Source: Chloroflexota bacterium
GTDB taxonomy: Bacteria; Chloroflexota; Anaerolineae; UBA1429
Direction: 5' to 3'
Length of the DNA stretch: 52,504 nucleotides
Assembly (NCBI GenBank): GCA_012719135.1
Contig: JAAYAW010000014.1
Location: 1-52,504, forward strand
Made by a program: the position numbers and the translations under genes. The notes beneath the pieces are model-generated. The model had not been told where the DNA came from. It saw nothing but the letters and a program-made list of their open reading frames with translations, and searched no databases. Below, one piece after another: positions 10,455 through 50,393 of this stretch (position 1 is its first letter; every line of letters begins with the position of its first letter).

Positions 10455-11336
10455 ATGAGGCGTAGACCAGGCACACGGCGCATCTCCGCCTATACGGCGT
10501 TCCTGATCCAGGCCTGCTTTATTTCGTGGGTCGGGTGGATGCCCGCGCTGCTCCTGGGGCCGACGCAAGGCTATGCGCACGTCCACGGCCTGAGCCTCCT
10601 CGAGGCGGGCTGGCCGCGCTTTTCCGGAGGGGTGCAGCTGGCGGTGGCCCTTCTCTTTGTGTCCGGCGCGTACGGCGCGCTGCTTTCGGGGTTGGGCGTG
10701 ACCGCACGCTTGGGGGGGAGCGAGGGAATCCGTTTGCTCATCCTGCGCCTCCGCACCTGGCGTGTTCCGGTGCGCTGGTATCTGGCGGCCTTTGGCCTGC
10801 CTGTCCTCCTGATTTTGCCCGCGGCTGCCCTTGCCCGTGCCCAGGGGATCGTGGCCGCGGCTCCGCCGCTGGGGGCTTGGGCTGCGCCGGTGGTCTTTTT
10901 GTTCCACTTGTTGACAATCGCCACGCAGGAAGTCGGGTGGCGAGGGCTCGCTCTTCCTTTGCTCCAGCGCACACGCAGCGCCGAGCAGGCGGCCTACCAG
11001 ACGGGGGCTGGGTGGATCGTCTGGCTGCTGCCGTATCTGATGGCGCTGTATGCCGGGCGGATTGAGCCGCAGCTGTACGCCCTCCATCTGCTTGGGTGGG
11101 TCTTGACCCTTCTGGGGGCCTCGGTGATTCAGGCCTGGCTGTACAACAGCACGGCCAGCCTGGTGTTGAGCGCCCTGTATAGCGCCACGATGATGACCGT
11201 CTGGGTGATGGCGGCGGGCATCCTGAATTGGCAGCCTGCGGCACAGCTTGTGCTGGGCTCTACGACCTGGCTGGCGGCGTGGCTCATCATCCGGCGCCGC
11301 GGTCAGCAGGGGCTGATGCACCGTCAGGCAGGGTAG
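10455..11336 (+). CDS. CPBP (Abi) family-like multi-pass membrane protein, catalytic motifs degenerate
   Basis: A 293-residue polytopic membrane protein with about seven to eight hydrophobic segments. The block TQEVGWRGLALPLL matches motif 1 of CPBP intramembrane glutamic proteases (EExGWRG), but the first Glu is Gln. The second-motif His expected in the following helix is absent (IVWLLPYLMA). The third motif YNSTASLVLSALYSATMM lacks the usual His and Asn. It is therefore a CPBP-fold protein that probably lacks protease activity. It follows the OYE gene by 34 bases and may close that operon. A GAGGACG sequence about 6 bases before the ATG is the likely ribosome-binding site. Confidence 0.72.
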   Translation: MRRRPGTRRISAYTAFLIQACFISWVGWMPALLLGPTQGYAHVHGLSLLEAGWPRFSGGVQLAVALLFVSGAYGALLSGLGVTARLGGSEGIRLLILRLRTWRVPVRWYLAAFGLPVLLILPAAALARAQGIVAAAPPLGAWAAPVVFLFHLLTIATQEVGWRGLALPLLQRTRSAEQAAYQTGAGWIVWLLPYLMALYAGRIEPQLYALHLLGWVLTLLGASVIQAWLYNSTASLVLSALYSATMMTVWVMAAGILNWQPAAQLVLGSTTWLAAWLIIRRRGQQGLMHRQAG

Positions 11337-11539: not shown

Positions 11540-12472
11540 ATGCCCAGTCTGAAGAGGATCGGTGAGCACGTTCGGCGGCTGATCCGGCCGCGACGCCTGG
11601 CCGTCGATGAGGAGGAACAGAGCAGACTCATGGGCCGGATAAGGGCCTCGGATGTGGAGTTGCGGCGGCAGGCCGCGGAGGCTCTGGGGGCCTTCCCGAC
11701 CGATGCGGCTGCGGCTGCGCTGGCGGAGGCCACCCATGATCGTGATGTGCACGTCCGCGAGATGGCCGCGCGCAGCCTCAGGGGCATCGGCAGGGACGCT
11801 CGGGTGCCTGTGACGCTGGTCATGGACGCGCTCCAGTTGGAGCCACTGGACTCCCCGGCCCTCTATCCTCTTGTCTCTGCCCTGCGCCTTCTAGGGCCCG
11901 GCGAGGCCGCGGAGCGTGTGGTGATCGAAAAGCACGGCTGGGGAATCGCCCGCGCGTCCAAGTCCAAGATAGACGAGATGGTCGCCCTCCGCGAGAAACT
12001 CGTGGAGTTCTCAGGGGATGCAGTGGCTATGAAGCCCGCCTTTGATGAGCTCTTTGCCAGGCTGGATGACCCCGATCCGGATATCCGGCAGGACGTAAAG
12101 GGAAGCCTGGCCAGCAACCGCTACTCTGTGCGGCCCCTCTGGGAGATCTATAACGAACTGCTCGAGACCGAGCCCCGGCGGGCTGTGATGGCGGGCCGGG
12201 TGATCGGCCACCGGCTCAACCCGCACGGGCTGCCGCGCGTGCCTGTGGGCACGACCATGACCAAGCTCGGCGTGCCGATCGCTTTTCTCACCTGCGCCTG
12301 CGCGCATTGCGGGCGTGAGAACCCCAACATCCCCGTCCCGCAGCGGGGACTGGACCTGCCCTGTACCGGGCGCCTGACCGCCGGCAGCGCGGCTTATGCG
12401 CTCGAGGTCCTGTGCGATTTCTGTGGCAACTACTTTGCGGCCACTTTTGATCAGGACCCGCGCTCGCCCTGA
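11540..12472 (+). CDS. HEAT-repeat protein with C-terminal zinc-ribbon-like cysteines
   Basis: A 310-residue protein. After a basic N-terminus, residues about 30-80 form HEAT/PBS-lyase-type repeats (ELRRQAAEALGAF, VHVREMAARSLRGIG). A further HEAT-like unit appears near DPDIRQDVKGSLAS. The C-terminus contains CACAHCG and CDFCG separated by about 50 residues, a likely zinc-binding pair. The ATG at 11540 follows GAGGAGC and is preferred to an upstream in-frame GTG. HEAT arrays usually mediate protein-protein contacts; no enzymatic function is visible. The gene is convergent with selD, with 10 bases between stop codons. Partner and role are unknown. Confidence 0.75.
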   Translation: MPSLKRIGEHVRRLIRPRRLAVDEEEQSRLMGRIRASDVELRRQAAEALGAFPTDAAAAALAEATHDRDVHVREMAARSLRGIGRDARVPVTLVMDALQLEPLDSPALYPLVSALRLLGPGEAAERVVIEKHGWGIARASKSKIDEMVALREKLVEFSGDAVAMKPAFDELFARLDDPDPDIRQDVKGSLASNRYSVRPLWEIYNELLETEPRRAVMAGRVIGHRLNPHGLPRVPVGTTMTKLGVPIAFLTCACAHCGRENPNIPVPQRGLDLPCTGRLTAGSAAYALEVLCDFCGNYFAATFDQDPRSP

Positions 12473-12482
12473 CGGCGAGCGC

Positions 12483-13562
12483 CTACAGGATCTCGATTCC
12501 CGCAGGGCCAGCGACAACCTCTCCGATCTCCCACACGGGCTGGCCGAGCCGGGCCGCCTCCCGTATGTATCGCTCTGCCGCCGCAGGGGGCAGAGTGAGG
12601 AGAAGGCCTCCCGAGGTCTCCGGCGTGCACGGCAACATGCGCTGCTCGTACTCCAGCCTGGGCGCAAAGCGCACGTGATGGCCATAGTCGGACATGTTGG
12701 TGTTAGCCAGGGCCGGGAAGAGCAGTTCGTCTGCATACTGGGCGGCTCCAGCGTGGAAGGGGAGCGCATCAAAGCGGAAACGCAGCAGCACCCCGCTTTG
12801 CGAGGCGACTTCCCAGGCATGGCCGAGGAGGCCAAACCCGGTCACGTCCGTCACCGCATGCAGTACGTCGACGGCACGGAGCGCCTCGGCTGCCCGGTTG
12901 TTCAGGCGTTTCATCCACTCCACCGCGCCGGCTACGTGTTCCGGCGACGCCTGATCTGCCTTGAAGGCCGTCGTAATGAGCCCCACGCCGAGCGGCTTGG
13001 TCAGCAGGATCCTATCGCCGGCCTCAGCGCCGGACTTGCTCCCGAGGCGATCTGGGCTCGCAAAGCCCAGAACGGCGTAACCGAACTTGGGCTCGTCGTC
13101 GTCAACGGTATGACCACCGGCCACCACGGCCCCTGCCTCTCGGATCTTGTCCGCCCCTCCGCGCAGGATCTGTGCCAGCACATCCTCGGGCATGTCTGCC
13201 GGAAAGGCCGCAAGATTGAGGGCCAAGAAGGGCTGCCCGCCCATGGCGTAGATGTCGCTCAGAGCGTTGGCTGCGGCGATGGCGCCATAGTCAAGAGGAT
13301 CATCCACGACGGGCGTGAAAAAGTCGATTGTGGCAACCAGGGCCCGTTCGGAACTCAGGCGCCAGGCCGCCGCATCGTCAGCTCTTGCCAGCCCGATGAG
13401 CAGATCGGGATACTGCGATTCGTCAAAGATCTCACCCAGATGGCGCGTAACTCGCGCCAGGGCCGCGGAGGCCCGCTTGCTCCCTCAACCGGCTGCCTTG
13501 GCCAGTTGCGACAGCCGATACGGGCGCTGCGGATCCGGGCCTTGGACGGGGCATTCAGTCAT
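12483..13562 (-). CDS. selD: Selenophosphate synthetase with an in-frame UGA selenocysteine codon
   Basis: SelD makes selenophosphate from selenide and ATP. On the minus strand the frame runs from ATG (13560-13562) to the stop at 12483, interrupted by one TGA (13485-13487) at codon 26. Around it the protein reads KAAG-U-GSKRASAALARV, exactly where other SelDs have the catalytic Cys in GAGCGCK, and K29 matches the essential Lys. The frame downstream of the TGA is fully conserved (TIDFFTPVVDDP, ANALSDIYAMGG, VTDVTGFGLLGH). With Sec decoded the protein is 359 residues, the normal family length. A simple ORF call would lose the first 86 residues and begin at a GTG (13305-13307). Translation needs SelB and tRNA-Sec, not in the window. 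The gene lies 28 bases after glgX. Confidence 0.93.
13442..13484 (-). promoter_or_regulatory. Candidate bacterial SECIS region of selD
   Basis: Immediately 3' of the UGA the mRNA can form two hairpins. One is GGGCC-UCCGC-GGCCC (13460-13474), starting 10 bases after the UGA. The other is GGCGCG-AGUUA-CGCGCC (13442-13458), with a perfect 6-bp stem and a GU-containing loop 32-36 bases after the UGA. Bacterial SECIS elements sit at this distance and usually carry GU in the apical loop. Which fold is used cannot be decided by eye. Confidence 0.5.
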
Positions 13563-13590
13563 GACGTCATTACTCCAGCAATAGCCGATC

Positions 13591-15717
13591 TCAAGGGCTC
13601 TGAGGCGACAAGGGGGGTACCTCGCCAAGGACCACCATAGAGTGCGGCGCTGCGCGGTAGCGAGGGTCTGCCAGAACCGGCCCCTCCGATTCGTTTTCGA
13701 CAATGTCCTCCGGAGAGGCCAGCGCGGTATCGATCAGGCGGCGCCAGCGGGATTCCGACGGCAGCTCGAACTCTAGCGGCTCATGGTATGCGTTCATGAT
13801 AGCATACAGGCCCGTGTCTCCGCGAAGCGCCTGCAGTTGCATGGCCAGTGAGTGCGAGTGGTAGCCCCAGTCCGGCTGGGAGATGTGGACGCCGTGAAAG
13901 AGCACGCCGTCATACAGCATGGCGTCATAGGGGCGGCCGTCCATCCGGTGCTCCTTCGTAAGCGTCGGGTGGCGCTGTCGCAACGCCACCAGTAGCCGGA
14001 CAAAGCGCACGAGATCGGCTCGTTCCTCCGCCAGCGACCAGTTGTGCCAGCTCGTCTCGTTGTCCTGGCAGTAGGCGTTGTTGTTACCTGCCTGCGTCCT
14101 CGCGAACTCATCGCCGCCGAGGATCATCGGCGTGCCCCGCGCGATCATGAGGGCTGTGAGCATGTTGCGCATCTGCCTGGCTCGAAGGTTCAGGATCTCC
14201 GGGTCGTTCGTGGGTCCTTCTGTACCGCAATTCCAAGAATGATTATAGTCCGTTCCATCGCGATTATCTTCGCCGTTCGCCAGGTTGTGCTTCCTGCTGT
14301 ACGAGACCAGGTCAGCCAGGGTAAACCCATCGTGCGCCGTCACATAGTTGATGCTGCGGTGCGAGGTATAGCTGGCCTTGCCGCGGAACAGATCAAAGCT
14401 GCCGGTGAGGCGCCAGGCGAGATCGCGCGCCGTGCCCGGGTCACCCCGGAAAAAGCGCCGGACGTCATCGCGAAAGCGACCGTTCCACTCGGCCCATCGA
14501 TCGCCCGTAAAGCCGCCCAGCTGATACAGCCCGGAGGCATCCCAGGCCTCCGCGATCAGCTTGGTGCCCGCCAGTACGGGGTCGGACTCGATCTCCCAGA
14601 GGATGGGCGGATTATCGAGCGGCTGCCCCTGCGTGTCGCGGGATAGCGCGGAGGCAAGGTCAAAGCGAAAGCCATCCACGTGATAGACCTGAACCCAATG
14701 CCGGAGGCAATCACGGATCATCCGGCGCACGATCGAGTGATTGGCATTCACCGTGTTCGCGCAGCCCGTAAAGTCGAGATAGCCGCAGTGTTCCGGGCTC
14801 AGTATGTAGTAGGTGCCATTCTCCAGGCCGCGAAACGATATCGTCGGCCCGTTCTCGTTTCCTTCGCCGGTGTGGTTGAACACCACATCGAGAATGACCT
14901 CGATCCCGGCGCGATGAAGTGCCTTGACCATGTCACGGAACTCATCCACCACGGCATGGCTTCCCGGCTCGCAGGCATAACCCTGATGCGGTGCGAAGAA
15001 GGCCACGGGTGCATATCCCCAATAGTTGCTGAGCGGTGCGCCTGTGAGCGGATCCCGGCGGTTGACCTCCTGCGGGTCGAACTGCTGGACGGGCAATAAC
15101 TCTATGGCCGTGATGCCCAAGCGCTGCAGGTAGGGGATCTTTTCGATCAGGCCTCGGTACGTCCCCGGGCATCGGACGCCCGACGACGGGTGGCGCGTAA
15201 AGCCGCGCACGTGGGCCTCGTAGATGACGCTCTCCCGAACGGGGCGTTGCAGTGGCGCGTCTCCTTCCCAGTCGTACGGGCCATAGTCGACCACCATGGC
15301 TTTGAGCGCAGATTGCACGTTATCGTGCAGGCCCTGCGCCTCAGCGCGTCTCCAGTTCGAGCCATAGGCTACCACGGCGGAGTAGGGGTCCAGCAGGGCC
15401 TTGGCGGGGCTAAAGAGCAGGCCCTCCTCCGGCAGATAGGGGCCGTGCACGCGGTAAGCATACAGGGCACCGGCCTGCAGGCCAGAGACGTAGGCATGCC
15501 AGTAGTAGTAGGTCCGGTTGGCCTCAGGATCGAGAGGCAGGACCTGAGAGGGGGCACTCTGGTCATATCGATCGAACAGCAACAACTCGACCGCGTCCGC
15601 ATGGGTCGAGTAAATGGAAAAGTTGACGCCCTCTGCCGATACCGTGGCGCCCAGAGGGGCAGGGGACCCGGCCAGCAGGGTGTGATCGCAGGGCCTAGCG
15701 GGTGCCGCTCGGCTCAT
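13591..15717 (-). CDS. glgX: Glycogen debranching enzyme / isoamylase (GlgX-type, GH13)
   Basis: A 708-residue GH13 enzyme that cleaves alpha-1,6 branches of glycogen or limit dextrins. An N-terminal CBM48-like beta domain (about 20-120) precedes the catalytic barrel. ILDVVFNHT, GFRFDLA with nucleophile D353, IAEAWDA with acid E390, and TAHDGF supply the four GH13 regions. The ATG at 15717 is chosen because AAGGAG lies 7 bases upstream. An upstream in-frame start would extend into the neighbouring intergenic region without a ribosome-binding site. It is preceded by a PH-like membrane protein gene and followed closely by selD. No other glycogen genes are in the window. Confidence 0.93.
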   Translation of the reverse strand: MSRAAPARPCDHTLLAGSPAPLGATVSAEGVNFSIYSTHADAVELLLFDRYDQSAPSQVLPLDPEANRTYYYWHAYVSGLQAGALYAYRVHGPYLPEEGLLFSPAKALLDPYSAVVAYGSNWRRAEAQGLHDNVQSALKAMVVDYGPYDWEGDAPLQRPVRESVIYEAHVRGFTRHPSSGVRCPGTYRGLIEKIPYLQRLGITAIELLPVQQFDPQEVNRRDPLTGAPLSNYWGYAPVAFFAPHQGYACEPGSHAVVDEFRDMVKALHRAGIEVILDVVFNHTGEGNENGPTISFRGLENGTYYILSPEHCGYLDFTGCANTVNANHSIVRRMIRDCLRHWVQVYHVDGFRFDLASALSRDTQGQPLDNPPILWEIESDPVLAGTKLIAEAWDASGLYQLGGFTGDRWAEWNGRFRDDVRRFFRGDPGTARDLAWRLTGSFDLFRGKASYTSHRSINYVTAHDGFTLADLVSYSRKHNLANGEDNRDGTDYNHSWNCGTEGPTNDPEILNLRARQMRNMLTALMIARGTPMILGGDEFARTQAGNNNAYCQDNETSWHNWSLAEERADLVRFVRLLVALRQRHPTLTKEHRMDGRPYDAMLYDGVLFHGVHISQPDWGYHSHSLAMQLQALRGDTGLYAIMNAYHEPLEFELPSESRWRRLIDTALASPEDIVENESEGPVLADPRYRAAPHSMVVLGEVPPLSPQSP

Positions 15718-20739: not shown

Positions 20740-21355
20740 TGGCCACAATGCCCGGCGACACTTCCTGGGAGATCGCCCTAGATGACTTCACCCAAAGCCA
20801 GGCTCCTCGCCCACGGCCGTCGGTCCGCCTGAGCGAGCGGCCGGACGTGGACGGGCAGGTTGGGACCGCAGCTACGCTCAACCTGGAGCGGGTATGGCAG
20901 GCTGCAGAGCGATTGGGTGAGGATCACGGGATCGAGACCGGCCTGGCGGATGAGGACGGAATCACCAGGCATAGCAGCCGGCATCCGATCGCCGGCGCCC
21001 ACCCGAGCAGCAACTGGGTTGCCGGGGAGGTCGTTCGAGCCGCCTATACGGCGGATCTCAGCGAGCTATCCGCCCGCCGCTACGATCTGGTGGTGTCCAT
21101 CCTCGATCTCGGCGTCGCGGAGGAGTTTGGGTCTCTTGTGGCACCCCCTGGCGAGCGGATGGTTGGCGAGCGCGTTGGTTGTGGATTCCCATCTGATCGC
21201 TCTCCCGGTATACGTCGTGCCCGGTGAGTACCGCCTGGTTGTCGGGCTGTACGATCCAACTCTCTGGTGCGCCTGCCGGTGAGTGCGCCAGCCGAAGCAC
21301 GAGTAACCGACGACCGCCTGCTGTTGGCCACGGTCAGCATCCCTTTCGCTCAGGG
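20740..21355 (+). pseudogene. Decayed remnant of a multi-module beta-sandwich protein (C-terminal part of a membrane glycosyltransferase-like protein)
   Basis: This gap of about 775 bases has no intact gene but keeps recognisable protein pieces in different frames. One frame reads TSWEIALDDFTQ, then LERVWQAAERLGEDHGIETGLADEDG and WVAGEVVRAAYTADLSE. From about 21165 the next frame reads ALVVDSHLIALPVYVVPGEY with RLVVGLYDPT. After about 21265 a third frame gives LVRLPVSAPAEARVTDDR. Together they look like two copies of a beta-sandwich module (typical phrases: WQPGEVV, PGEYRLVVGLYDP) found at the C-terminus of long membrane glycosyltransferases in related bacteria (from memory, not searched). 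At least two frameshifts and loss of the N-terminal part mark it as a pseudogene. Sequencing error could explain the shifts but not the missing upstream part. Confidence 0.6.
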
Positions 21356-21439: not shown

Positions 21440-22144
21440 ATGGATCTCATTCAGGTACTGATACGCCTGGCCCTCGTAGACGAGGAGTGGGACGACAAGG
21501 GCCGCCGCTACCAGCAAGTACGAGAGTTGCTTGGCAATCCTCGCGAGTTGACAGATCGACAGGAGGCCCAGGCGGCCCTCGTCCGGGACGATGCCGAAGC
21601 CCGTGCGGCGCTTGCCAACCTCGAGCTGGAGATGGAGAGTCTGCAGGGGCGCTTGAGTCAGGTCGAGAAGGACCTCTACGGCGGTACCATCTCGGCGCCC
21701 CGTGAGTTGGAGAACCTTCGACGCGATGGCGATCAACTTCGCCATCGGATCGCGCAGATCGAGGATCAGGCTCTGGCCTTGATGGCCGCCTGTGATGATC
21801 TCGATGTTCGGGTCCACGACGGGGCAGCCGCGCTTGAGGCCTTTGAGAGCGAGTGGGCTGTGCTCACAGCGGACGCCCGGGAGACTTACCAGACCCTTCG
21901 CGCCCGGCTGCAGGACCTTCAGAGCGAGCGCGAGCAGCTGCGCCAGCGTGTCCCAGCACAGGAGATGGCCCTGTACGACGAACTGCGCCGCACAAAGAAC
22001 GGCCGTCCGCTCGCTCCGATGCGTGACGGCATCTGCCAGGTATGCCGCGTCAGTGTCCCGCGGAACAAGATCACGATCGCCGAGGGTGGGTACGATAGCG
22101 TCGCAACCTGCGAAGGCTGCGGCAGAATACTCTACCAGGCCTAG
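21440..22144 (+). CDS. Coiled-coil protein with C-terminal C4 zinc ribbon (DUF164/zf-RING_7 type)
   Basis: A 234-residue cytoplasmic protein. Residues about 5-170 are a long antiparallel coiled coil rich in Glu, Gln, Leu and Arg. The C-terminus carries CQVCRVSVPRNK and CEGCGRILY, two CxxC knuckles of a zinc ribbon that probably binds nucleic acid. Members of this family are widespread and poorly characterised. The ATG at 21440 follows AGGAGGG and is the first start after a good promoter. It is followed 11 bases later by the ATPase-propeller gene, so the two are co-transcribed. Confidence 0.85.
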   Translation: MDLIQVLIRLALVDEEWDDKGRRYQQVRELLGNPRELTDRQEAQAALVRDDAEARAALANLELEMESLQGRLSQVEKDLYGGTISAPRELENLRRDGDQLRHRIAQIEDQALALMAACDDLDVRVHDGAAALEAFESEWAVLTADARETYQTLRARLQDLQSEREQLRQRVPAQEMALYDELRRTKNGRPLAPMRDGICQVCRVSVPRNKITIAEGGYDSVATCEGCGRILYQA

Positions 22145-22155
22145 GGAGCGACTAC

Positions 22156-24243
22156 TTGCTCAACCCGTATATTACCGATCGTCCGCTGGGCGGCGAGGAT
22201 CTGTTCATCGGCCGCACAGAGGTTCTGAGCCGCCTGCATGACATCCTGCATAGCGAACACCGGCTCGTCCTCCTCTTTGGCAAGCCTCATATCGGCAAGA
22301 CATCGCTTCTGAATCAGTTTGTGGCGCAACTCGGCTCCACAGGGCGGATGCAGCGCGTGGATTGGAGCGCCGTGTCCGCGCGGTCCGGTGACCTGTGTGA
22401 GCGCATCGTGAATGCACTGTGTGATGCGCTCGATCTGCAGGTCGGACAGGAGGACGATTCGAGGCAGATCCTGCGGGCACGCTGCGCGCAACCCCTTGCG
22501 GCCGGTGAGCGCGCATCCGTGGTGGCGATCGATGGGCTGGGCCTGGAGGAGTGTGCCTCCGGCAACGGCTGGGCGCAAGGGGCGAGCGAACTTGCGGAGC
22601 TCCTGCGGGGCGGATCGCTGCTTGTGATTATCGCCGTGGAAGCGCGCCCTGAGGAATGCCAGGCCACCGCTCCGGAGCTCCCCACTATCGTGCTGAGCGG
22701 CCTCTCGCTGGAGGAGACGGAGGACCTGTTGCTGGTGCCCGTGCGCGGGGCCATGACCTATGATCTGGAGTCCATGCGCCGGATCTATGCCCTCACCGGC
22801 GGGGAGCCGTATCTCGTCCAGTTGTACGGCTACTGCATATTCGAGCAGCGCGCTCAGAGGGGCTGGGCGGGGATTATCGAAGTGGAACTGGCCGTAGATG
22901 ACGTGATCGAGCGCGCGGCTGCCCAGTTCGCAGAGCTATGGGGACGCTGCGGAGTGCCAGCGCGCATTGTGCTGTGCGTCTTTTCGGAGGGAATTGGAAC
23001 CCACGGTATCGGCTCGGCAGACGACGTCCGCCGCAGGCTACAGCGCGAGCGCGTGGAAATGCCGCTCGCGGATGTCGAGGAGGCGCTGGACGAGTTGCGC
23101 CAGCGCGATCTGGTGGAACGCCTGGGTGGCGGCCTCTTCCGGTTTCGCAACGCCCTCTTCCTGCGCTGGCTCAGAGCGAACAGGAGCCTGGTCGAGACGG
23201 TGCGCCGCACCCGCGAGTACCGCCGCCTGCCCCGCCCCACGGTGCCGCCGATACTCAACCGGCGCATCGATTGGCTCGGGTTATCCCTCTGGGTCCTCAT
23301 CGCCGCTTTGATTGTCGCCGTGGCGGCCGTCTGGAGATCTCGAGAGACACGCATCACGTGGACCGACGCCCCACCAACCGCAACGCTGGAGGCAGATTCC
23401 AGCCCGGCTGCAGCAGCGGCAACGATGCCCCTGCGCGCGCCCTCTGGCAGGCTCGTCTACCAAGCCAAGGCCGAGTCGGGGCATTACTGGGATATCTACA
23501 CCATGCAGAGCGATGGGCTGGACCCGATCCGGCTGACTCAGGATGCCTCTGATAACACCGGCCCGGCCTGCTCGCCCGATGGGAAGCGAATCGCCTTTGT
23601 GAGCGACCGCGAAGGGAACCGCGAGATCTATGTGATGGATGCCGATGGGGCCAATGTGCGCAACCTTTCGCAGAACGCCGCGGAGGACTGGACCCCTTCC
23701 TGGTCTCCCGATGGAACCAGGCTGGCGTTCGCTTCTTTCCGGGATGGTAACTGGGAGATCTATGTGATGGATGCGGACGGGGCTAACGCCCAGCGCATCA
23801 CGCGTTCCAGCAACGCGGACTATGCGCCCGCCTGGTCGCCTACGGGCGATGCGATCGCCTTTGTATCGGATCGTTCAGGCAACCTGGACGTATACCTCAT
23901 GGCGCCGGACGGGTCCGACCTGCGGACCGTGACAACCGACACATCGACGGATCAGGCGCCGGCCTGGGCACCCGATGGGCGACAACTCCTGTGGGAGAGC
24001 TATCGTGATTCGAACATGGAGATCATGGCGATCGATGTGACGGGCGGTGCGCCTCGCAATCTGACGCAGGACGCCTATGCCGATGATCACGGGGGTAGCT
24101 GGTCGCCATCGGGCGATGGTATCGCCTATTTCAGCAATCACAACGTGGGATGGGACATCTTTACCCTGGACCTGCGCACCGGTCAGCGTGTGAACATTAC
24201 CCAGAGCGTGGCCATGGAGCAGTACCCGGTCTACTGCCCTTAG
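22156..24243 (+). CDS. STAND-like ATPase fused through one transmembrane helix to a TolB-like six-bladed propeller
   Basis: A 695-residue three-part protein. Residues 1-350 form an ATPase of the AAA_16/NACHT-like kind: LFIGRTEVLSRL, a Walker A FGKPHIGKTSLL (42-49), a VVAIDGLGL Walker B-like strand, then GGEPYLVQLYGY and a winged-helix-like segment. A membrane helix follows near 374-395 (LGLSLWVLIAALIVAVAAVW), then a Pro/Ala/Thr-rich linker. From about 425 there are six PD40 repeats of the WSPDGxxIAFxSDRxGNxEIYVMDADG type, one full TolB-like propeller. The topology implies a cytoplasmic ATPase and an extracellular propeller. The TTG start is preceded by GGGAG. Its stop overlaps that of yggT on the other strand. 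Confidence 0.85.
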   Translation: MLNPYITDRPLGGEDLFIGRTEVLSRLHDILHSEHRLVLLFGKPHIGKTSLLNQFVAQLGSTGRMQRVDWSAVSARSGDLCERIVNALCDALDLQVGQEDDSRQILRARCAQPLAAGERASVVAIDGLGLEECASGNGWAQGASELAELLRGGSLLVIIAVEARPEECQATAPELPTIVLSGLSLEETEDLLLVPVRGAMTYDLESMRRIYALTGGEPYLVQLYGYCIFEQRAQRGWAGIIEVELAVDDVIERAAAQFAELWGRCGVPARIVLCVFSEGIGTHGIGSADDVRRRLQRERVEMPLADVEEALDELRQRDLVERLGGGLFRFRNALFLRWLRANRSLVETVRRTREYRRLPRPTVPPILNRRIDWLGLSLWVLIAALIVAVAAVWRSRETRITWTDAPPTATLEADSSPAAAAATMPLRAPSGRLVYQAKAESGHYWDIYTMQSDGLDPIRLTQDASDNTGPACSPDGKRIAFVSDREGNREIYVMDADGANVRNLSQNAAEDWTPSWSPDGTRLAFASFRDGNWEIYVMDADGANAQRITRSSNADYAPAWSPTGDAIAFVSDRSGNLDVYLMAPDGSDLRTVTTDTSTDQAPAWAPDGRQLLWESYRDSNMEIMAIDVTGGAPRNLTQDAYADDHGGSWSPSGDGIAYFSNHNVGWDIFTLDLRTGQRVNITQSVAMEQYPVYCP

Positions 24244-28607: not shown

Positions 28608-29014
28608 GGCGAGTGAGCCAGGCGACCGCGGAGGGCCGGTAACGGGCCTTCGAGGAAAGTCCGAACTCCCCAGAGCACGATGCTGGATAACGTCCAGGCG
28701 GGGTGACCCGACGGCACAGTGCAACAGAGAGGAGATTGCCGCCTGCAGGCAGGGCCCTGGTTCTGCGGCCGGCGGTGAGGGTGAAACGGTGGTGTAAGGG
28801 ACCACCGGCGGCCCGGGCGACCGGGTCGGCCAGGCAAACCCCATCGGGAGCAAGACCAAGCAAGGGGCGTCCCGAGCATGCTCGGGACAGAGGCTGCTCG
28901 TCTCAGGCCCCGGGTAGGTCGCACGAGGCGCCGAGCAATCGGCGTCCCAGATAGATGGTCGCCAGCGCCGTCGACGTGCGGCGCGACAGAATTCGGCTTA
29001 TCGGCTCACTCGCC
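28608..29014 (+). ncRNA. rnpB: RNase P RNA (type A)
   Basis: The catalytic RNA of RNase P, which matures tRNA 5' ends; about 407 nt. The ends form a perfect 12-bp P1 helix (GGCGAGTGAGCC at 28608-28619 with GGCTCACTCGCC at 29003-29014). The universally conserved CR-I block GAGGAAAGTCCGAACTCC begins near 28651. CR-V-type ACAGAATTCGGCTTAT begins near 28986, and the AGGGTGAAACGGTGG-like P10/11 region and the P15 GGCAAACCCC loop are also present. A strong hairpin GTCCCGAGC-ATGCTCGGGAC marks a peripheral helix. Boundaries are set by P1 pairing. Confidence 0.97.
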
Positions 29015-29055
29015 TCAGCCATCTCAGCGCCGCGGCCCGGCCACGGAGGTTCCCC

Positions 29056-32789: not shown

Positions 32790-33566
32790 GTGAATGAGCT
32801 GGAAGTGCGCGATCTTCCGTTATTGGAGTACGATCCATCTCCCGCGGTCATCGAGCCGCGGAGTGTGATGGAGAGCACCGCGCTGTTTCCAGAACGGCTG
32901 GTGATGTGTTTCTTCGCCGAACAGATCCGTTCGCTGGTAGAGAGCGGCCTGGCACGTCCCCTGGCGGTTTTCGGCTCCGAGGTGGGGCCCAACCCCGTCT
33001 ATACCATCGATCAGGAGGGCTGTCCCATCGCGCTGGTGCAGCCCGGTGTGGGAGCCCCCTTCTCGGCGGCAGTCCTGGACGAGGCCATCGCGTGCGGGGC
33101 ACGCAAGGTCATCGTGTGCGGCGGTGGAGGCGTCCTGGATAGAGAGATCGCCGTGGGACATCTGCTGGTTCTTGCCGATGCCGTCCGCGACGAAGGCACG
33201 TCGTATCACTACCTTCCGCCGAGTCGGCGCGCTGCGGCGCACCCGGCTGCCATTGGCGCGCTGGAGGGTGTTCTGGAGCGGCGTTCCATTCCCTATCTGC
33301 GCGCCACCGCTTGGACGACGGACGCCTTCTACCGGGAGACGCCCGCCAAGGTCCGCCTGCGCAGGGAGGAGGGTTGCCTCTGCGTGGAGATGGAGGCGTC
33401 CGCGCTCTTTGCCGTCGCGCAGTTCCGCGGGATTGTGCTCGGGCAGTTGCTGTACGCGGGCGATGATGTGAGCGGCCTGGATTGGGATACGCGCGATTGG
33501 AAGGGGCGCCATGATGCGCGCGCCCACGTGTTGCAGCTCGCTCTGGAGGCCTGTCGGAGCCTGTAG
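32790..33566 (+). CDS. Nucleoside phosphorylase (PNP/UDP family)
   Basis: A 258-residue protein of the PNP_UDP_1 superfamily, which phosphorolyses nucleosides to base and ribose-1-phosphate. Motifs include an IALVQPGVGAPFSAAVLDEAI strand-helix, KVIVCGGGGVLD, and CVEMEASALFAVAQFRG, where the Met-Glu pair contacts ribose. YAGDDVSGLDWD follows. The GTG start at 32790 is chosen because GAGGAGGGGGAG precedes it and because the promoter lies just upstream. Uridine phosphorylase-like specificity is likely but not certain. Downstream, after 205 bases with no visible feature, comes an acyl-adenylating enzyme gene. Confidence 0.82.
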   Translation: MNELEVRDLPLLEYDPSPAVIEPRSVMESTALFPERLVMCFFAEQIRSLVESGLARPLAVFGSEVGPNPVYTIDQEGCPIALVQPGVGAPFSAAVLDEAIACGARKVIVCGGGGVLDREIAVGHLLVLADAVRDEGTSYHYLPPSRRAAAHPAAIGALEGVLERRSIPYLRATAWTTDAFYRETPAKVRLRREEGCLCVEMEASALFAVAQFRGIVLGQLLYAGDDVSGLDWDTRDWKGRHDARAHVLQLALEACRSL

Positions 33567-33771
33567 GCGTGCCCGCGTTTTACCTGTGTCCGGGGCTACC
33601 GGTCGTGCGTGCTTCCTCCCGGAGCCAGCAGATCGGATAGAGCTTCCCAGGGGATGGAGGGGACGAGCGATCGCGGCAGCGCATGCCTGCGATGCTGGGC
33701 AGCCGGGGCAGATGCGCCGGTCTGCATGGCGGTTGATAGCCGGCCGGCGTGCGGCTTGGCAGGGAGGAAAC

Positions 33772-35340
33772 ATGCTCCGAGATGTGTGCGCGGGCCTGGC
33801 CTTTATCAAGGAACTAAAGCCCTACGTGCGAGAGCCTCTCTGTTTCGAGCAGGCCGAGGCGCGTATCCGGCAGCAGCTTTCGCAGAGAGAGGAGGGCTTT
33901 CTGCGGGTGCTGAGGCAAGCCGTGTACGGATATGCCCCCAGCCCGTATCTCGCCCTGCTGAGGCACGCGCAGATTGCGTACCAGGATGTGGAGGCCCTGG
34001 TACGCCAACGTGGGGTTGAGAGCACTCTGGACCGGTTGTACGACGAGGGGATCCACATCACCCTGGATGAGTTCAAGGGCAGGGCGCCGATCGAGCGACC
34101 GGGCCTCAGCCTGCCTGTGAGCAGCGCCGCATTCGACAGCCCGATTCTCGAAGGGGCTATGACCTTTGCCAGCGGCGGGTCCGGGGGTTACCGCCGGCGG
34201 TTGCGAATCGACCCTGCCAGCCTGCGCTACGAGGCGGCCTACAACCTCTTGTACGAGCGGGCCGTATCGGCGGAGGGCATGCCTTTTGCTCAGTGGCGCC
34301 CGATTCTACCAGGCAGCGCCGGCATCAAGGATGCCATGCGGCAAGCCATGGCGCGCCGGCCGGTCGCGCGGTGGTTCTCGCAGGTGGATCCGCGCCACCT
34401 GGATGGGCATGCGGTCCTGACGCGTTTGGCGGTGGGCGCGGCGCGCGCTTGGGGCGCGGATATCGCCATGCCGCGGTACGTGCCGGCCGATGACGCGGGC
34501 CAGGTCGCGCGCTGGTTGGCGAGCCAGGCAGCGGCCGGTCACCCCGCCTTGATCTCGATGACCGGGAGTTCCGCCGTGCGTGTGTGCCAGGCTGCCGAGC
34601 AGCTGGGAGTGGATATCACTGGAACCCTCTTTCGCCTGGGCGGTGAGCCCTATACAGAGGCCCGGGCTGAGGTCATTCATGCCGCGGGCGCCCGCGCAGT
34701 AACGCACTACTCCATGTCCGAGCTGGGGCGCATCGGCCTCTCATGCGGGGCGCCGGAGCATGTCGATGACGTTCATCTGCTGTCGGACAAGCTGGCCCTG
34801 ATCCAGCGGCCGCCCCGAGGTACGCACGCTGGCGATGGCCTTCTGGCCTGGCATCTGACGACGCTCATCGCGACGCTGCCCAAAATCATGCTGAACGTGG
34901 AAACGGGAGACTATGGTGGGGTAGAACAGCGCGATTGCGGCTGCCTGCTGGGGCAGCTGGGGTTGAGCACGCATCTTCACACCATCCGGAGCTATGAGAA
35001 ACTGACCACCGAGGGCATGCACTTTACGGCCTCAGCCCTGCTGCATCTGGTAGAGGAGGAGCTGCCTCGACGCTTCGGTGGTGCCCCTGGAGATTATCAG
35101 CTGGTGGAACACCAGTCCGGCGGGGTGAGCCGAGTACTCCTGGTGGTGAGCCCGCGCGTGGGCGCTCTGGATGAGGCCGCGGTGGTGGCCACCGCCCTGC
35201 GCGAACTCGCAACGGATGCCGGCACGCGCATGATGGCGAGTCACTGGGAACGGGTGCGCACACTGCGGGTTGTGCGTCGCGAGCCGTACGTCACCGCCGC
35301 GGCGAAAATACAGCCGCTGCATATCGAGCGTTCGCTCTAG
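33772..35340 (+). CDS. Divergent AMP-forming ligase (phenylacetate-CoA ligase / LuxE-like)
   Basis: A 522-residue protein resembling the ANL superfamily. MTFASGGSGGYRRRLRI corresponds to the Ser/Gly-rich P-loop motif (usually TSGSTGxP). HYSMSELGRIGLSC matches the YGxTE motif. NVETGDYGGVEQRDCGC resembles the GDLG hinge region followed by the CxCG-like segment common in phenylacetate-CoA ligase relatives. The N-terminal 110 residues are unassigned. The ATG at 33772 follows AGGGAGG, while a longer in-frame reading would overlap the phosphorylase gene. It may activate a carboxylic acid as an acyl-adenylate for CoA or a carrier; the substrate is unknown. Confidence 0.68.
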   Translation: MLRDVCAGLAFIKELKPYVREPLCFEQAEARIRQQLSQREEGFLRVLRQAVYGYAPSPYLALLRHAQIAYQDVEALVRQRGVESTLDRLYDEGIHITLDEFKGRAPIERPGLSLPVSSAAFDSPILEGAMTFASGGSGGYRRRLRIDPASLRYEAAYNLLYERAVSAEGMPFAQWRPILPGSAGIKDAMRQAMARRPVARWFSQVDPRHLDGHAVLTRLAVGAARAWGADIAMPRYVPADDAGQVARWLASQAAAGHPALISMTGSSAVRVCQAAEQLGVDITGTLFRLGGEPYTEARAEVIHAAGARAVTHYSMSELGRIGLSCGAPEHVDDVHLLSDKLALIQRPPRGTHAGDGLLAWHLTTLIATLPKIMLNVETGDYGGVEQRDCGCLLGQLGLSTHLHTIRSYEKLTTEGMHFTASALLHLVEEELPRRFGGAPGDYQLVEHQSGGVSRVLLVVSPRVGALDEAAVVATALRELATDAGTRMMASHWERVRTLRVVRREPYVTAAAKIQPLHIERSL

Positions 35341-41989: not shown

Positions 41990-42018
41990 AGTATATCGTT
42001 CATTAGTGGCAGGGTAAA
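41990..42018 (-). promoter_or_regulatory. Sigma-70-type promoter for ridA
   Basis: On the minus strand TTTACC (42013-42018), 17 bases and TATACT (41990-41995), 52 bases before the ATG at 41938. Confidence 0.55.
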
Positions 42019-42061
42019 GGCCCTCCCGGCGCGATCCGTGCCCGATGGCCGTGGTATAGGC

Positions 42062-42089
42062 TTGAGGTGGGCTCTGCCGTCGCTATAAT
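42062..42089 (+). promoter_or_regulatory. Sigma-70-type promoter for the lipid kinase-esterase pair
   Basis: TTGAGG (42062-42067), 16 bases and a perfect TATAAT (42084-42089), 67 bases before the ATG at 42156. It is divergent from the ridA promoter. Confidence 0.7.
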
Positions 42090-42155
42090 GCGTATCATGA
42101 GGCGGATCGCCAGATCGCGCCGGCGTTTCGGCGGTCGCTGACGGAAGGGGTAACC

Positions 42156-43088
42156 ATGCCTCACGCGCTTGTGGTCGCCAATCCTCTGGCCGGGAATGCC
42201 CGTATCGCACAGATCCGGCGGATGCTGGCAGCGCAGCTGGGGCCCCCCTGGACCTATCGGCTGGTGTGCCTGTCTCCGGGCCTGGATCTCCATGCCCTGA
42301 TCCGGCGGGAGGTCGAGGCGGGCGCAGACGTGATCGTCGCGGCCGGCGGCGATGGGACGGTGCGATCGGTAGCCGGGTGTCTGGTGGGGGCGAGCGTCCC
42401 GCTGGCGATCCTGCCTGAGGGCACCGCCAATGTGCTGGCTCGCGATACCGGCATACCCGCGCGCATGGAGGCGGCTCTTGCCCTGATCAAGGGCCAGCAC
42501 GATCTCATGCGTCTGGACGCCATCGAGGCTGCCGGCTCCTTCGCCTTTATGAACCTGAGCATCGGGCTCAGCGCCGGCATTATTCGGGATACCGATTCGG
42601 CGGGTAAACGGCGCTACGGGATGCTGGCCTACATCTGGTCCGGTGCAAAGAACCTGTTGGCCGTGGGCACCCATGATGTGACGCTGACTGTGGATGGGAG
42701 TGCCTACCGGCTTCGAGCCAGCGAGGTGCTGGTCGCCAACTGCCCCACGCTTGGCGCGAAGGAGTTGCGCGTGCCTGTGGATATCCAGCCGGCGGATGGC
42801 ACCCTGCAGGTGATCGCCTTCCGCGCGCGGCACCTGGTGGACTATGTTCACGTGGCCCGCGAGCTCTTGCTGCGGCGCCCGCGAACCCTGAGGCACATTC
42901 AGGTTTTTCAGGCGTCGCGCCAGGTGAGCATCGAGGCCACCGAGGTGCTCGATGTTCAGGCCGATGGTGACCTCATTGGCCGCACGCCGCTGGAGGCCCG
43001 CCTCGTGCCGGGCGCCGTGTCGCTGGTGGTTCCGGTGGGACAGTCTCAGGGCCAGAGCATCGCCGCCGGGCGTACGGCCGATCACTGA
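42156..43088 (+). CDS. Diacylglycerol kinase-type lipid kinase
   Basis: A 310-residue member of the DAGK/YegS family. GGDGT at residues 64-68 is the nucleotide-binding loop, preceded by VVANPLAGN. LAILPEGTANVLARDTGIP matches the conserved GTAND-type motif that follows it. The C-terminal half is a beta-rich lipid-binding domain (VDIQPADGTLQVIAF). It phosphorylates diacylglycerol or a related lipid at the membrane surface. GAAGGGG lies before the ATG. An esterase gene follows 13 bases after the stop codon. Confidence 0.92.
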   Translation: MPHALVVANPLAGNARIAQIRRMLAAQLGPPWTYRLVCLSPGLDLHALIRREVEAGADVIVAAGGDGTVRSVAGCLVGASVPLAILPEGTANVLARDTGIPARMEAALALIKGQHDLMRLDAIEAAGSFAFMNLSIGLSAGIIRDTDSAGKRRYGMLAYIWSGAKNLLAVGTHDVTLTVDGSAYRLRASEVLVANCPTLGAKELRVPVDIQPADGTLQVIAFRARHLVDYVHVARELLLRRPRTLRHIQVFQASRQVSIEATEVLDVQADGDLIGRTPLEARLVPGAVSLVVPVGQSQGQSIAAGRTADH

Positions 43089-43101
43089 GGAGGAAGTGAA
43101 G

Positions 43102-43839
43102 ATGCCCATGCATACGATCCAATGGAAGAGCCGCCAGATAGGCAAGGACACCACCATGCGTGTGTGGGTTCCCGATGGGGCTCCGCCCTACGCCACCATT
43201 TACCTGCTGCACGGTTTAGGGGGCGACTCCTCTACATGGATGCGTTTTCACCGGCTGGAGCGGCTTCTGGAGGGGCGCGGCCAACCACTGGTGGTCATGC
43301 CGGATGCAGATCGTTCCTTCTATGCCAACGACCCTCGTTCCGGAGGGCTGGCCTACGAAGACTATGTCGCGAGCGAGGTTCGGGAGTACGTCGAGCAAGT
43401 CTTTCCGGTACTCCATGAGCGCCGCTCGCGGGCATGCGTGGGGTTGAGCATGGGAGGCTACGGGGCGCTCTTGCTCGCCCTGGACCATGCCGATCTATTC
43501 GGGGTGGCGGCTTCGATCTCGGGATCTACGTACTTTGGCCACGACATGACGGGCCGGCATGAGGATGACGATGTGGGCATGCTCGGCCGTGCGCTCGTGC
43601 GGGAGTGCAACGATCTCTTCTCCCTGTCCGCGGGGCTTGAGCAGGCGCCGGCCTTGCGCATCTCCTGTGGCCGGCAGGACCACCTGTACGACACCAATCT
43701 CGCGTTTCACCAGCACCTGACAGAACGCCGTGTGCCGCACCTGTGGGTCGAGCATGAGGGCGACCATAGCTATGCCACCTGGGACATGCAGGTGCCCCTG
43801 GCGATCGAGTGGGCCATCGGGCAGATGGGCGCGAGCTGA
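43102..43839 (+). CDS. Esterase D/S-formylglutathione hydrolase-like alpha/beta hydrolase
   Basis: A 245-residue alpha/beta hydrolase of the putative esterase family. YLLHGLGGDSSTW provides the oxyanion region. S116 in VGLSMGGYGA is the nucleophile. SCGRQDHLYD and EGDHSYATWD supply the Asp and His of the triad. No signal peptide is present. The ATG at 43102 follows AGGAGGAAG. Co-transcription with the lipid kinase suggests a lipid or acyl ester substrate, but tributyrin-type esterases and S-formylglutathione hydrolases look alike at this level. Confidence 0.9.
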   Translation: MPMHTIQWKSRQIGKDTTMRVWVPDGAPPYATIYLLHGLGGDSSTWMRFHRLERLLEGRGQPLVVMPDADRSFYANDPRSGGLAYEDYVASEVREYVEQVFPVLHERRSRACVGLSMGGYGALLLALDHADLFGVAASISGSTYFGHDMTGRHEDDDVGMLGRALVRECNDLFSLSAGLEQAPALRISCGRQDHLYDTNLAFHQHLTERRVPHLWVEHEGDHSYATWDMQVPLAIEWAIGQMGAS

Positions 43840-47342: not shown

Positions 47343-50300
47343 TTACGGCGCGGGCGTGTAGCGCGAGATTCCGTGTGACGTCAGAATCCAGAGGGCGCCA
47401 TCCCGATCTTCCAGGATCTGGAGCACGTCGTCGTGGGCCAGCCCGTGCAGGCTATTGTACAGTGACCAGCCCTTTTCGTTGTGGTGCAGCAGCCCTGCAC
47501 CGGCCGTGCCTGCCCAGAGTGTGCCGTCGGACGCGGGGTAGAGGCAGGAGATGGGAGCCTGAGGCAGTTCGTCACCCGCGACAGAGAGCTGCCAACCCGT
47601 GCCTGTCCGGTGCGCGATCACGGTATCCGACGCCGCCCAGATCTCCCCATCGGCGAGGACCAATAGGTGATCGATAGATTGATCCGCTAGGTCCGGGACG
47701 GCTTGCCAGGCCTCGCCGGACTTGAAGTACAGGCCTCGATCCGTGGCGAGCCAGAGCGATCCGGATTCTTCGCGGGCCAGACGCAAGAGGGAGGCTCCCT
47801 GAGCAGCGCCCAGATCGACCGAGGTCCATGAGGCGCTATCGTAGGCGGCGAGGGCTTGCTCGGTGAGATGCCAAACGAGGCCGGGCCCCGCGACGAGCAA
47901 CTCCCTTGCGGATCCTGGAGCCTGCTCGGCAGCGCCCGCCAACCGCGCCCAGCGGCCGGCTGCATGCCGGTACACTCCCAGGTCGGTGAGCACCCACAGC
48001 GCACCCTGGCTGTCGCGGATCATGGAGAGCGTCTGTCCTGCGCCGGGGCCGCACCCCTCCGGCGTGATCCAGTATCCTTCCTGCATCCGGGCCATGCCGT
48101 CGGGTGTGGCTGCCCACAGGGTGCCGCCCGCGTCGGCCAGTAGCGCGTCTATGGTGCCTTCAGAGAGGTCTCCGTCATCCAGTTCATAGCCGCCATAGGC
48201 ATCGTAGCGGCGTACGCCGCTATCCGTGCCGAACCAGAGCGAACCGTCACGGGCAGCGGAGGCGGCTCGGATCGGGTCTGCCGCGACGGTTGTCCACGCA
48301 TCGCTACCGTAGCGCGCCAGACCGCCCTCAGTGCCCACCCAGATGCCGCCATCCAGGGCCTCGGCCAGAGCGGTCACACGCTGATCCGGAAGGTCCTCGC
48401 CGGTGCCTAGGCGCTCCCACGTATCTCCGTTCAGGCGTGCGAGGCCCGCCGCCGTGCCAACCCACAACTCGCCGCTGCTCGTGACGAGGAGCGCTCGCAC
48501 GTCGTTCCCAGGGAGGCCGTCTGCGACCGTGTGCACTTGCCATGTGCCTTCGGAGAGCTCTGCCAGGCCAGTGGGGAAGGCCACCCAGTATCTCCCGTCG
48601 CCGCCTTCCTCCACGGCGCGAACCGACTGGGCCCGCAAGCCGCTCACTCGCCGCCAGCTTGGCTGGCCTTCGCTCCAGCCTGAGGTGTACAAGCCCTCCG
48701 CCGTCCCCAGCCACAGGAGGCCGTCGGTGCTCTGCATCAAGGTGGCCGGATCGGCCGGCGGGAGGGCCTCCGGTTCCGTGAGCTGGAGCCAATCGCCTTC
48801 CGGGCTGACGATGGTGAGCCCCCGCGCTGATCCGAGCCACACGGAGCCATCCGTCGCCAGGCCGAGTGGTCGTTGCTGTGCTTCCGCCAGGCAGCGGCTC
48901 TCGTACAGCACCGCACCGGAGGTGGGGTCGAGCTGCATCGTAGCGCCTTTTCCGCTGGCCCAGATCGTGGCATCGCCCGGGGCAAAGAGCCGCTCTATGC
49001 CTCCCGAGACGGCGTGAGTCGCCTCGTCAGCGACCACGCTCCAGGCGCCCCCCCAGTGGCGCAGCACGGCACCATCCCGGCGCCGCAGCCAGATGGAGCC
49101 GTCCGGCGCCTCCACGAGGCTGGTGATGCCGTCGGTCTCCGGCAAAGGAGAGCGGTACGTGGCCCGTTGTCCCTCGGCCACCTGCACGATGCCCTGCGAT
49201 GTGGCGGCGAACAGCCCCATGGTCTGATCGGCCAGCAGTCGATAGACCTCCGCCCCGGGCTGGGAAGCGTCCGGCCAGAGGTTTTCCCAGCCGGCTCCAG
49301 CGTGACGCGCCAGCCCACCGGCGCCCGCGCAGTATACATGGCCATCGTATCCCACGGTCAGGTCGTTGTAAGGCGCCACGGCAGGTCCGTCGCTTGCCGT
49401 GTATAGTGTCCACTGGCCTTGCCGCAACCGGGCGATCGCGTTGGCCGAGGCAACCCACAGATCGCCCTCCGAGCTGACCTCCAGGCTGACTACCGGAGCG
49501 CCGAGTTCGGGCGTGGCGCTGGCTGCCCAGGAGCCATCGTATTGCCAGAGCGTGCCATCACGGTCGGCGGCCCAAATGCTCCCTGCTGCGTCCTCAGCCA
49601 TAGCGGTAACGTTCTCTGGGCTGTTCTCCACTGCGCTGACGCGGCCCGCTGCATCGGCTCGCAGGATTCCTGCGCCCACGATGGCGAACCATACGTCGCC
49701 ATTGCGGGATTCGAGCACGTCGGCAAAGACGGTCTCTCTTTCCGGCTGTGGCTCCCAAACCGCTTCCCAACGGTCATCCCTCCACCTTGCGAGCCCACCC
49801 ACGGTGCCGCACCAGAGCGTGCCGTCGCTCCCCTGTGCGAGCAGCGTGACGATGTCCGCAGGCAAGCCCGAATCACGCGTATATGTGACCCATGAAGCCC
49901 CGTCGTATCGGGATAGCCCGGCATCGGTTCCGGCCCAGAGGGCGCCATCCGATGAGACGAGAAGGGCGGATACGTGCTGGCTGGCGAGCCCGGAGGGGCT
50001 CCCGAAGCTCTGCGTGTCTCCGTGCGTCGTATCCCAACGGGTGATCCCAACCGCCGTCGCCGCCCACAGAGAGCCATCCACCGAGGTGACGAGGGCGTTC
50101 ACCCGGTTGCTTGCCCCGATGCTCGCCCAGGCGCTATCCACACCGCTCGTCTGGCGGGTAGGGCGGGGCGATGGAAGCGCCAAGGGGCCGGGGGGCGTCC
50201 CGGTGGGCGACGGCGGAACCGACGTCACAGGCGGGGCGATGGTGGGAAGCGACGCTGAGGGCCCGGGCTCCGGCTCTGCGAGCCCGGTGGCCGATCCGCG

Positions 50301-50393
50301 ATCCATCGAGGCAGGTCCCGTCAGCCGGCAGCCCGTGACGATGCCTGCGGCCAGCACGATTATGACTATATGACGAACCAGGCAGAGACGCAT
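47343..50393 (-). CDS. Large lipoprotein of tandem two-component-regulator-type propeller repeats
   Basis: A 1016-residue exported protein. The N-terminus MRLCLVRHIVIIVLAAGIVTGC is a lipoprotein signal with lipobox VTGC (C22), followed by a Pro/Ser/Thr-rich spacer to about residue 80. The rest consists of 23 countable repeats of the form (I/V)xxLxxxxDGxLWxGTxxGLxRYD, about 40 residues each, the Reg_prop type usually found in sensors of hybrid two-component systems. Here no membrane helix, kinase or regulator domain follows, so it is a free-standing set of about three beta-propellers at the cell surface. Function is unknown; glycan or protein binding is possible (inference). GGAGG lies before the ATG. 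Confidence 0.88.
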   Translation of the reverse strand: MRLCLVRHIVIIVLAAGIVTGCRLTGPASMDRGSATGLAEPEPGPSASLPTIAPPVTSVPPSPTGTPPGPLALPSPRPTRQTSGVDSAWASIGASNRVNALVTSVDGSLWAATAVGITRWDTTHGDTQSFGSPSGLASQHVSALLVSSDGALWAGTDAGLSRYDGASWVTYTRDSGLPADIVTLLAQGSDGTLWCGTVGGLARWRDDRWEAVWEPQPERETVFADVLESRNGDVWFAIVGAGILRADAAGRVSAVENSPENVTAMAEDAAGSIWAADRDGTLWQYDGSWAASATPELGAPVVSLEVSSEGDLWVASANAIARLRQGQWTLYTASDGPAVAPYNDLTVGYDGHVYCAGAGGLARHAGAGWENLWPDASQPGAEVYRLLADQTMGLFAATSQGIVQVAEGQRATYRSPLPETDGITSLVEAPDGSIWLRRRDGAVLRHWGGAWSVVADEATHAVSGGIERLFAPGDATIWASGKGATMQLDPTSGAVLYESRCLAEAQQRPLGLATDGSVWLGSARGLTIVSPEGDWLQLTEPEALPPADPATLMQSTDGLLWLGTAEGLYTSGWSEGQPSWRRVSGLRAQSVRAVEEGGDGRYWVAFPTGLAELSEGTWQVHTVADGLPGNDVRALLVTSSGELWVGTAAGLARLNGDTWERLGTGEDLPDQRVTALAEALDGGIWVGTEGGLARYGSDAWTTVAADPIRAASAARDGSLWFGTDSGVRRYDAYGGYELDDGDLSEGTIDALLADAGGTLWAATPDGMARMQEGYWITPEGCGPGAGQTLSMIRDSQGALWVLTDLGVYRHAAGRWARLAGAAEQAPGSARELLVAGPGLVWHLTEQALAAYDSASWTSVDLGAAQGASLLRLAREESGSLWLATDRGLYFKSGEAWQAVPDLADQSIDHLLVLADGEIWAASDTVIAHRTGTGWQLSVAGDELPQAPISCLYPASDGTLWAGTAGAGLLHHNEKGWSLYNSLHGLAHDDVLQILEDRDGALWILTSHGISRYTPAP

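Follow-up and report, generated by a model that had tools for sequence, protein, structure and literature searches.

Genes and features of the locus

The window, meaning the entire 52,504-nt stretch of DNA analyzed here, belongs to a Chloroflexota genome of 2.64 Mb that is 99% complete. Within it lie two closely spaced, co-directional genes, the first encoding a zinc-ribbon protein and the second a fusion of a predicted STAND module with a beta-propeller. The ORF of the fusion gene is exact at 22156-24243, with 695 codons open from a TTG that lies 11 nt after the end of the zinc-ribbon gene. The features are as follows, each with the evidence for it.

21440-22144, + strand: CT398/HP0958/MSMEG_4306-type protein, 234 aa, ATG start (PF24481 and solved-structure profile matches)
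22143-22158, + strand: GGGAG stretch resembling a Shine-Dalgarno sequence and spanning the stop codon of the zinc-ribbon gene, followed by the TTG start (sequence)
22156-24243, + strand: fusion of STAND module, TM helix, linker and six-bladed PD40 propeller, 695 aa (present in 15/15 family genomes)
22159-23205, + strand: predicted cytoplasmic STAND module, residues 2-350, with P-loop NBD, helical region and winged helix (AlphaFold2, fold matches)
22279-22302, + strand: Walker A motif at residues 42-49, reading GKPHIGKT (6/33 homologues lack Lys48)
22519-22542, + strand: Walker B region at residues 122-129, reading VVAIDGLG (Asp126 is invariant and is followed at 127 by a non-acidic residue)
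23272-23346, + strand: single transmembrane helix, residues 373-397, predicted N-side in (hydropathy, model, flank charge)
23347-23445, + strand: disordered P/A/T/S-rich linker, residues 398-430 (pLDDT, composition)
23446-24240, + strand: six-bladed TolB-like PD40 propeller, residues 431-695 (PF07676, TolB match)

Domain organization and distribution of the fusion protein

The fusion gene was found in 15/15 genomes of the family to which the window genome belongs, far beyond chance, as a single copy in the same genomic position, and its domain order was preserved across 33 full-length homologues. Those relatives that carry names are Anaerolineae/Chloroflexi MAGs, as retrieved by a contig search with an 8-row alignment. 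A mobile or viral origin of the fusion was considered and rejected, as two search patterns returned no relative of the protein from viral contigs. An AlphaFold2 model of the whole protein, built on an alignment of 21 sequences, had a mean pLDDT of 85 and a pTM of just 0.53, as expected for two domains joined via a disordered linker.

The C-terminal domain is a PD40 propeller (PF07676, E 4.5e-43) with six blades in the model at residues 432-695, and its best solved match is TolB (Z 35.7, rmsd 2.2, 269 residues). The protein as a whole falls outside TolB proper, with a TIGR02800 score of 192.8 bits against a cut-off of 343.15. It was the sole PD40 protein found in the window genome. A second large propeller protein is encoded in the window at 47346-50393 (- strand), a 1016-aa product with many "two component regulator propeller" (Reg_prop) repeats. 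Within the family, the propeller is the most constrained part of the fusion, at 61% mean identity versus 48% for the TM segment and 36-38% for the STAND part, in part because PD40 blades are consensus-like repeats.

Ahead of the propeller, a single hydrophobic helix at ~373-397 (Kyte-Doolittle peak 2.72, also helical in the AlphaFold2 model) is followed by a P/A/T/S-rich linker at ~398-430, with pLDDT below 50 at 398-427. Of the two 30-residue flanks of the helix, the N-terminal one carried the higher net charge in 28/33 homologues (means +4.4 vs +0.4). Furthermore, cysteine makes up 0.24% of the propeller versus 0.99% of the ATPase part. This positive-inside bias and the Cys depletion of the propeller argue for an N-in, C-out topology with an extracytoplasmic propeller. 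An earlier note on this DNA had described an ATPase joined by one helix and a linker to a six-blade PD40 propeller predicted outside the membrane; Pfam, hydropathy, AlphaFold2, fold searches and the 33 homologues confirm this observation of a fusion and of its domain order, and the charge and cysteine profiles support the proposed placement of the propeller.

Fold of the N-terminal module

VIA-align with the full-length model returned mostly propellers, so the N-terminal part was folded and searched separately. The AlphaFold2 model of residues 1-361 alone was of high confidence (pLDDT 92, pTM 0.89). Its residues 3-341 align to 2qen with Z 22.6, and SSO1545 (2fna) matches with Z 20.0, both over ~310 residues. 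Module residues ~12-350 match plant NLRs and CED-4 in their NBD-HD-WHD cores (Z ~18), with further STAND-core matches to Dark and AVS3, and the whole-protein model also matches Apaf-1 (3sfz). Pfam matches at the N-terminus, to AAA_16, AAA_22 and nSTAND1, are weak but coherent. Several traits of STAND proteins can be recognized: a P-loop with a Walker A motif (GKPHIGKT in the window protein), a helical domain and winged helix behind the NBD in both the model and the fold alignments, accompanied by a nearly invariant G216 and an invariant P218, and a C-terminal superstructure-forming sensor, here the six-bladed propeller, although across the membrane. On the strength of these models and alignments, the N-terminal module is a predicted STAND module complete with its winged helix, and the earlier assignment to a STAND-type ATPase is upheld.

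Loss of catalytic residues

In canonical STAND proteins, the residue after the Walker B aspartate is acidic. The window protein has an intact Walker A and lacks this second acid (VVAIDG, with D126 and none at 127), and thus departs from the pattern of hhhhD followed by an acid. Across the linked group of homologues, the residue in question is G, A, S or Q in 18/21; 8/12 members of the unlinked group have D there. Also, the Walker A lysine has been replaced in the alignment of full-length homologues by T, A, R, V, T and I in six of the 33, two of which belong to the window genome's own family, and parsimony requires at least four changes on the tree. The Walker A glycines and the Walker B aspartate are invariant, a pattern suggesting that most members still make use of nucleotide binding. 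The loss of the lysine among homologues and the missing acid in the linked group are new observations.

The repeated lysine loss and the missing acid indicate that ATP turnover is not what selection preserves. These residue patterns fit a nucleotide-gated scaffold or a pseudo-NTPase better than an enzyme that turns over ATP. In our reading, the STAND part binds nucleotide and serves as a scaffold or switch for which hydrolysis may be dispensable. The whole looks like a sensor-like protein whose ability to split ATP fades in many relatives. The "signalling ATPase" of the earlier note therefore keeps its STAND-type ATPase and loses much of its case for turnover. Homologues lacking ATPase motifs, which the note had named as evidence against itself, do exist in part, in the form of these lysine and acid losses.

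The upstream zinc-ribbon protein

The zinc-ribbon gene begins at an ATG at 21440, rather than at the 21224 given by the ORF caller, and ends at 22144. Its product carries the coiled-coil hairpin PF24481 (43.8 bits, cut-off 27), scores below the cut-off for PF02591 (23.0 bits, cut-off 29.1), and has a C4 zinc ribbon formed by C199, C202, C224 and C227, both CxxC pairs of which are invariant in 22 homologues. Profile searches matched CT398 (4ilo, E 3e-23), MSMEG_4306 (5y05) and HP0958 (3na7). The coiled-coil zinc-ribbon partner proposed in the earlier note is thus a real gene, with a corrected start.

To our knowledge, the RpoN partnership of the CT398/FlgZ (DUF164) family is known for the H. 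pylori and chlamydial members only. A search for RpoN (Sigma54_DBD), with positive controls, found it in 0/15 family genomes; a role as RpoN chaperone was rejected on this ground, and the zinc-ribbon protein needs another client. There are several precedents: besides RpoN, HP0958 and CT398 have the ATPase regulators FliH/CdsL as binding partners, flaA mRNA is bound by HP0958, a parallel for the nucleic-acid binding suggested in the earlier note, and Rv2229c occurs in membrane fractions and is reported to be essential in M. tuberculosis (PMC5947703). DUF164 proteins exist both with and without RpoN (PMC3372290).

Conservation of the gene pair

The zinc-ribbon gene is present in 14/15 family genomes, the one absence being explained by a contig break within the fusion gene. 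Wherever both genes are visible (14/14) they are adjacent and co-directional, with a spacing of ~5-70 nt across 13 genera and at ~40% protein identity; the genes upstream of the pair vary. This spacing and its conservation suggest that the two genes are co-transcribed. Seven further families of the class also have the pair linked (f6, f8, f44, f18, f23, f30 and f42), with the genes adjacent in f6, f8 (two genomes) and f44, and separated by the gene for an FAD-dependent oxidoreductase in f18, f23, f30 and one f42 genome. In the f18 genome an RNase HI gene also intervenes. At the level of single loci, an FAD-dependent oxidoreductase gene of the DAO family lies directly upstream of the fusion gene in L044, L045, L046, L047 and L051, and in four of these it separates the fusion and zinc-ribbon genes, together with RNase HI in L047. 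The two genes are unlinked, on other contigs or far apart, in f3, f7, f12, f13, f14, f16, f29 and the second f42 genome, where draft-contig breaks may hide linkage. The pair is conserved in one lineage and is not obligate. A lack of conservation, the other outcome that the earlier note had named as evidence against itself, is not what is seen within the lineage, although elsewhere the two genes can occur apart.

Around the pair, the neighbours are malic enzyme on one side and, on the other, a convergent yggT-proC-yggS-yfiH-radical-SAM-like ORF cluster, which the pair faces downstream in most linked genomes. The locus holds no secretion genes and no MoxR or vWA genes. Between the malic enzyme and zinc-ribbon genes, fragments at 20823-21255 correspond to the last third of a multi-membrane protein of 927 aa, which by eye resembles a glycosyltransferase and whose gene is intact at the same place in a sister genome (L032:4364-7147) and here is broken over several frames, so that this stretch is probably a decayed gene. 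A class A RNase P RNA lies just past the convergent cluster at 28610-29016 (+ strand), and at the same place in L032 and L043. Elsewhere in the window, four ORFs had no Pfam match at E 1e-4: 33511-35337 (609 aa), 42006-43157 (384 aa), 10455-11333 (293 aa) and 12396-13637 (414 aa).

A conserved rare start codon

The start codon of the fusion gene in the family is TTG in 12/14 genomes, GTG in 2/14 and ATG in 0/14 (loci L012, L013, L032, L033 and L035-L043, plus 22156-22158 of the window), and a Shine-Dalgarno-like GGAG precedes it in nearly all. As a baseline, which is small, we used orthologues of neighbouring genes: the zinc-ribbon gene starts with ATG in 13/14 family genomes and proC in all 13 available orthologues. 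Outside the family, ATG is common as the start of the fusion gene. That a rare start has been retained in 13 genera hints at selection, either to keep translation low or to couple the gene to its upstream neighbour.

Comparison with known systems

Among the open-access papers searched, none describes a pathway with the architecture of the fusion. Its parts recall several systems. In Apaf-1 and Dark, too, a beta-propeller, the presumed sensor, comes after an NBD-HD-WHD core. Here, by contrast, a TM helix and linker split the propeller from the switch, the single propeller is of the six-bladed TolB/PD40 type rather than formed by cytoplasmic WD40 propellers directly behind the core, there is no effector domain, and the catalytic residues are decaying. 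PknD of Mycobacterium tuberculosis is a Ser/Thr kinase-TM-propeller sensor and so shares the plan of a cytoplasmic switch, one TM helix and an outer propeller; its switch is a kinase instead of a STAND module, and its propeller family differs. TolB propellers bind peptides and Pal. The fusion shares with TolB the six-bladed PD40 propeller, lacks the TolB N-terminal domain and has its propeller anchored to the predicted cytoplasmic STAND module. The closest solved folds of that module, 2qen (PAB2304) and 2fna (SSO1545), are archaeal Walker-type ATPases whose matched chains are ATPase modules of ~350 residues, with no membrane helix or propeller in the match.

The zinc-ribbon protein shares its coiled-coil hairpin and C4 zinc ribbon with CT398/CdsZ, HP0958/FlgZ and MSMEG_4306/Rv2229c; it differs in its setting, which is without RpoN in 15/15 family genomes and next to a gene for a membrane STAND protein. 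Finally, MoxR-vWA systems include inactive STAND NTPases (iSTAND), and a subset is predicted to act near the membrane (PMC7159879). The present locus differs from these in having no MoxR or vWA gene, no variable effector and a propeller that would lie outside.

A proposed mechanism and its alternatives

The best-supported reading is a membrane-split receptor, akin to Apaf-1 and PknD. The TolB-like propeller would sit on the outer face of the cell membrane and bind a ligand, most likely a peptide or protein, and its state would be passed through the flexible linker and the one TM helix to the cytoplasmic STAND module. In place of ATP turnover, this module would serve as an oligomerising scaffold or as a switch with bound nucleotide, and in part of the lineage it would be a pseudo-NTPase. 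Its likely downstream contact would be the coiled-coil zinc-ribbon protein from the gene immediately upstream, which may carry the receptor state to an RNA or protein client, and few copies of the receptor would be made owing to the conserved TTG start. We hold this single-pass receptor, with an outer propeller that senses a ligand and sets a cytoplasmic STAND switch or scaffold in contact with the zinc-ribbon protein, tentatively, at a little under an even chance. The interpretation given in the earlier note is partly supported. A more ambitious version would make the fusion a bacterial, membrane-split counterpart of Apaf-1, in which the outer propeller gates an increasingly catalysis-free STAND scaffold that controls a co-made RNA- or protein-binding adaptor of the CT398/FlgZ type, at a low copy set by the conserved UUG; as a whole it is doubtful.

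The main rivals are a static scaffold of the envelope or of secretion, and a chance neighbourhood. According to the first, the propeller is an external platform for the cell wall or an exported protein, no signal is passed, and the STAND module and zinc-ribbon protein together make up a static anchor on the cytoplasmic side, which organises export or coupled translation at the membrane. This would account for the decay of catalytic residues while the fold, the TM helix and the propeller are retained, and for the single copy per genome at a fixed locus, which suggests housekeeping; moreover, CT398 and HP0958 work with secretion ATPase regulators and the mRNA of an exported protein (PMC5947703). 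We nevertheless regard it as unlikely, since the invariant Walker A Gly and Walker B Asp suggest that nucleotide binding has kept its importance in most members, and the locus lacks secretion genes.

The second rival is, in our judgement, equally unlikely. It holds that nothing but lineage history has placed the two genes side by side, the zinc-ribbon protein doing a general job and the STAND-propeller protein being an independent sensor. The zinc-ribbon gene is indeed near-universal in the class (81/100 genomes), whether or not the fusion is present, and the intervening oxidoreductase gene in four families and the unlinked pairs in others point the same way. In mirror-tree partial correlations no specific coupling of the zinc-ribbon protein to the ATPase part stood out. 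Against a purely historical association stands the adjacency itself, which survives in every family genome where it can be seen, over all 13 genera and despite the sequence divergence, while the genes upstream change. A role in defence or conflict, as an AVS/NLR-type STAND protein that senses an invader and triggers an effector, is very improbable and is not supported: although the STAND fold resembles NLRs, CED-4 and AVS3, PADLOC gave just weak P-loop matches, viral contigs yielded no relative, and the fusion is single-copy and syntenic throughout the 15 family genomes, has no effector domain, and bears a sensor that would be outside the membrane and is highly conserved rather than variable.

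Significance

Most work on STAND proteins concerns immunity and transcription, where they act as switches in the cytoplasm. If the receptor reading is true, the fusion described here, a core single-copy protein with an outside sensor and decaying catalytic residues, would make it possible to test on a natural case whether STAND proteins can switch without hydrolysing ATP. For the very widespread and little-understood CT398/FlgZ/DUF164 family, it would also offer a concrete candidate for a membrane partner in a setting other than RpoN or type III secretion.
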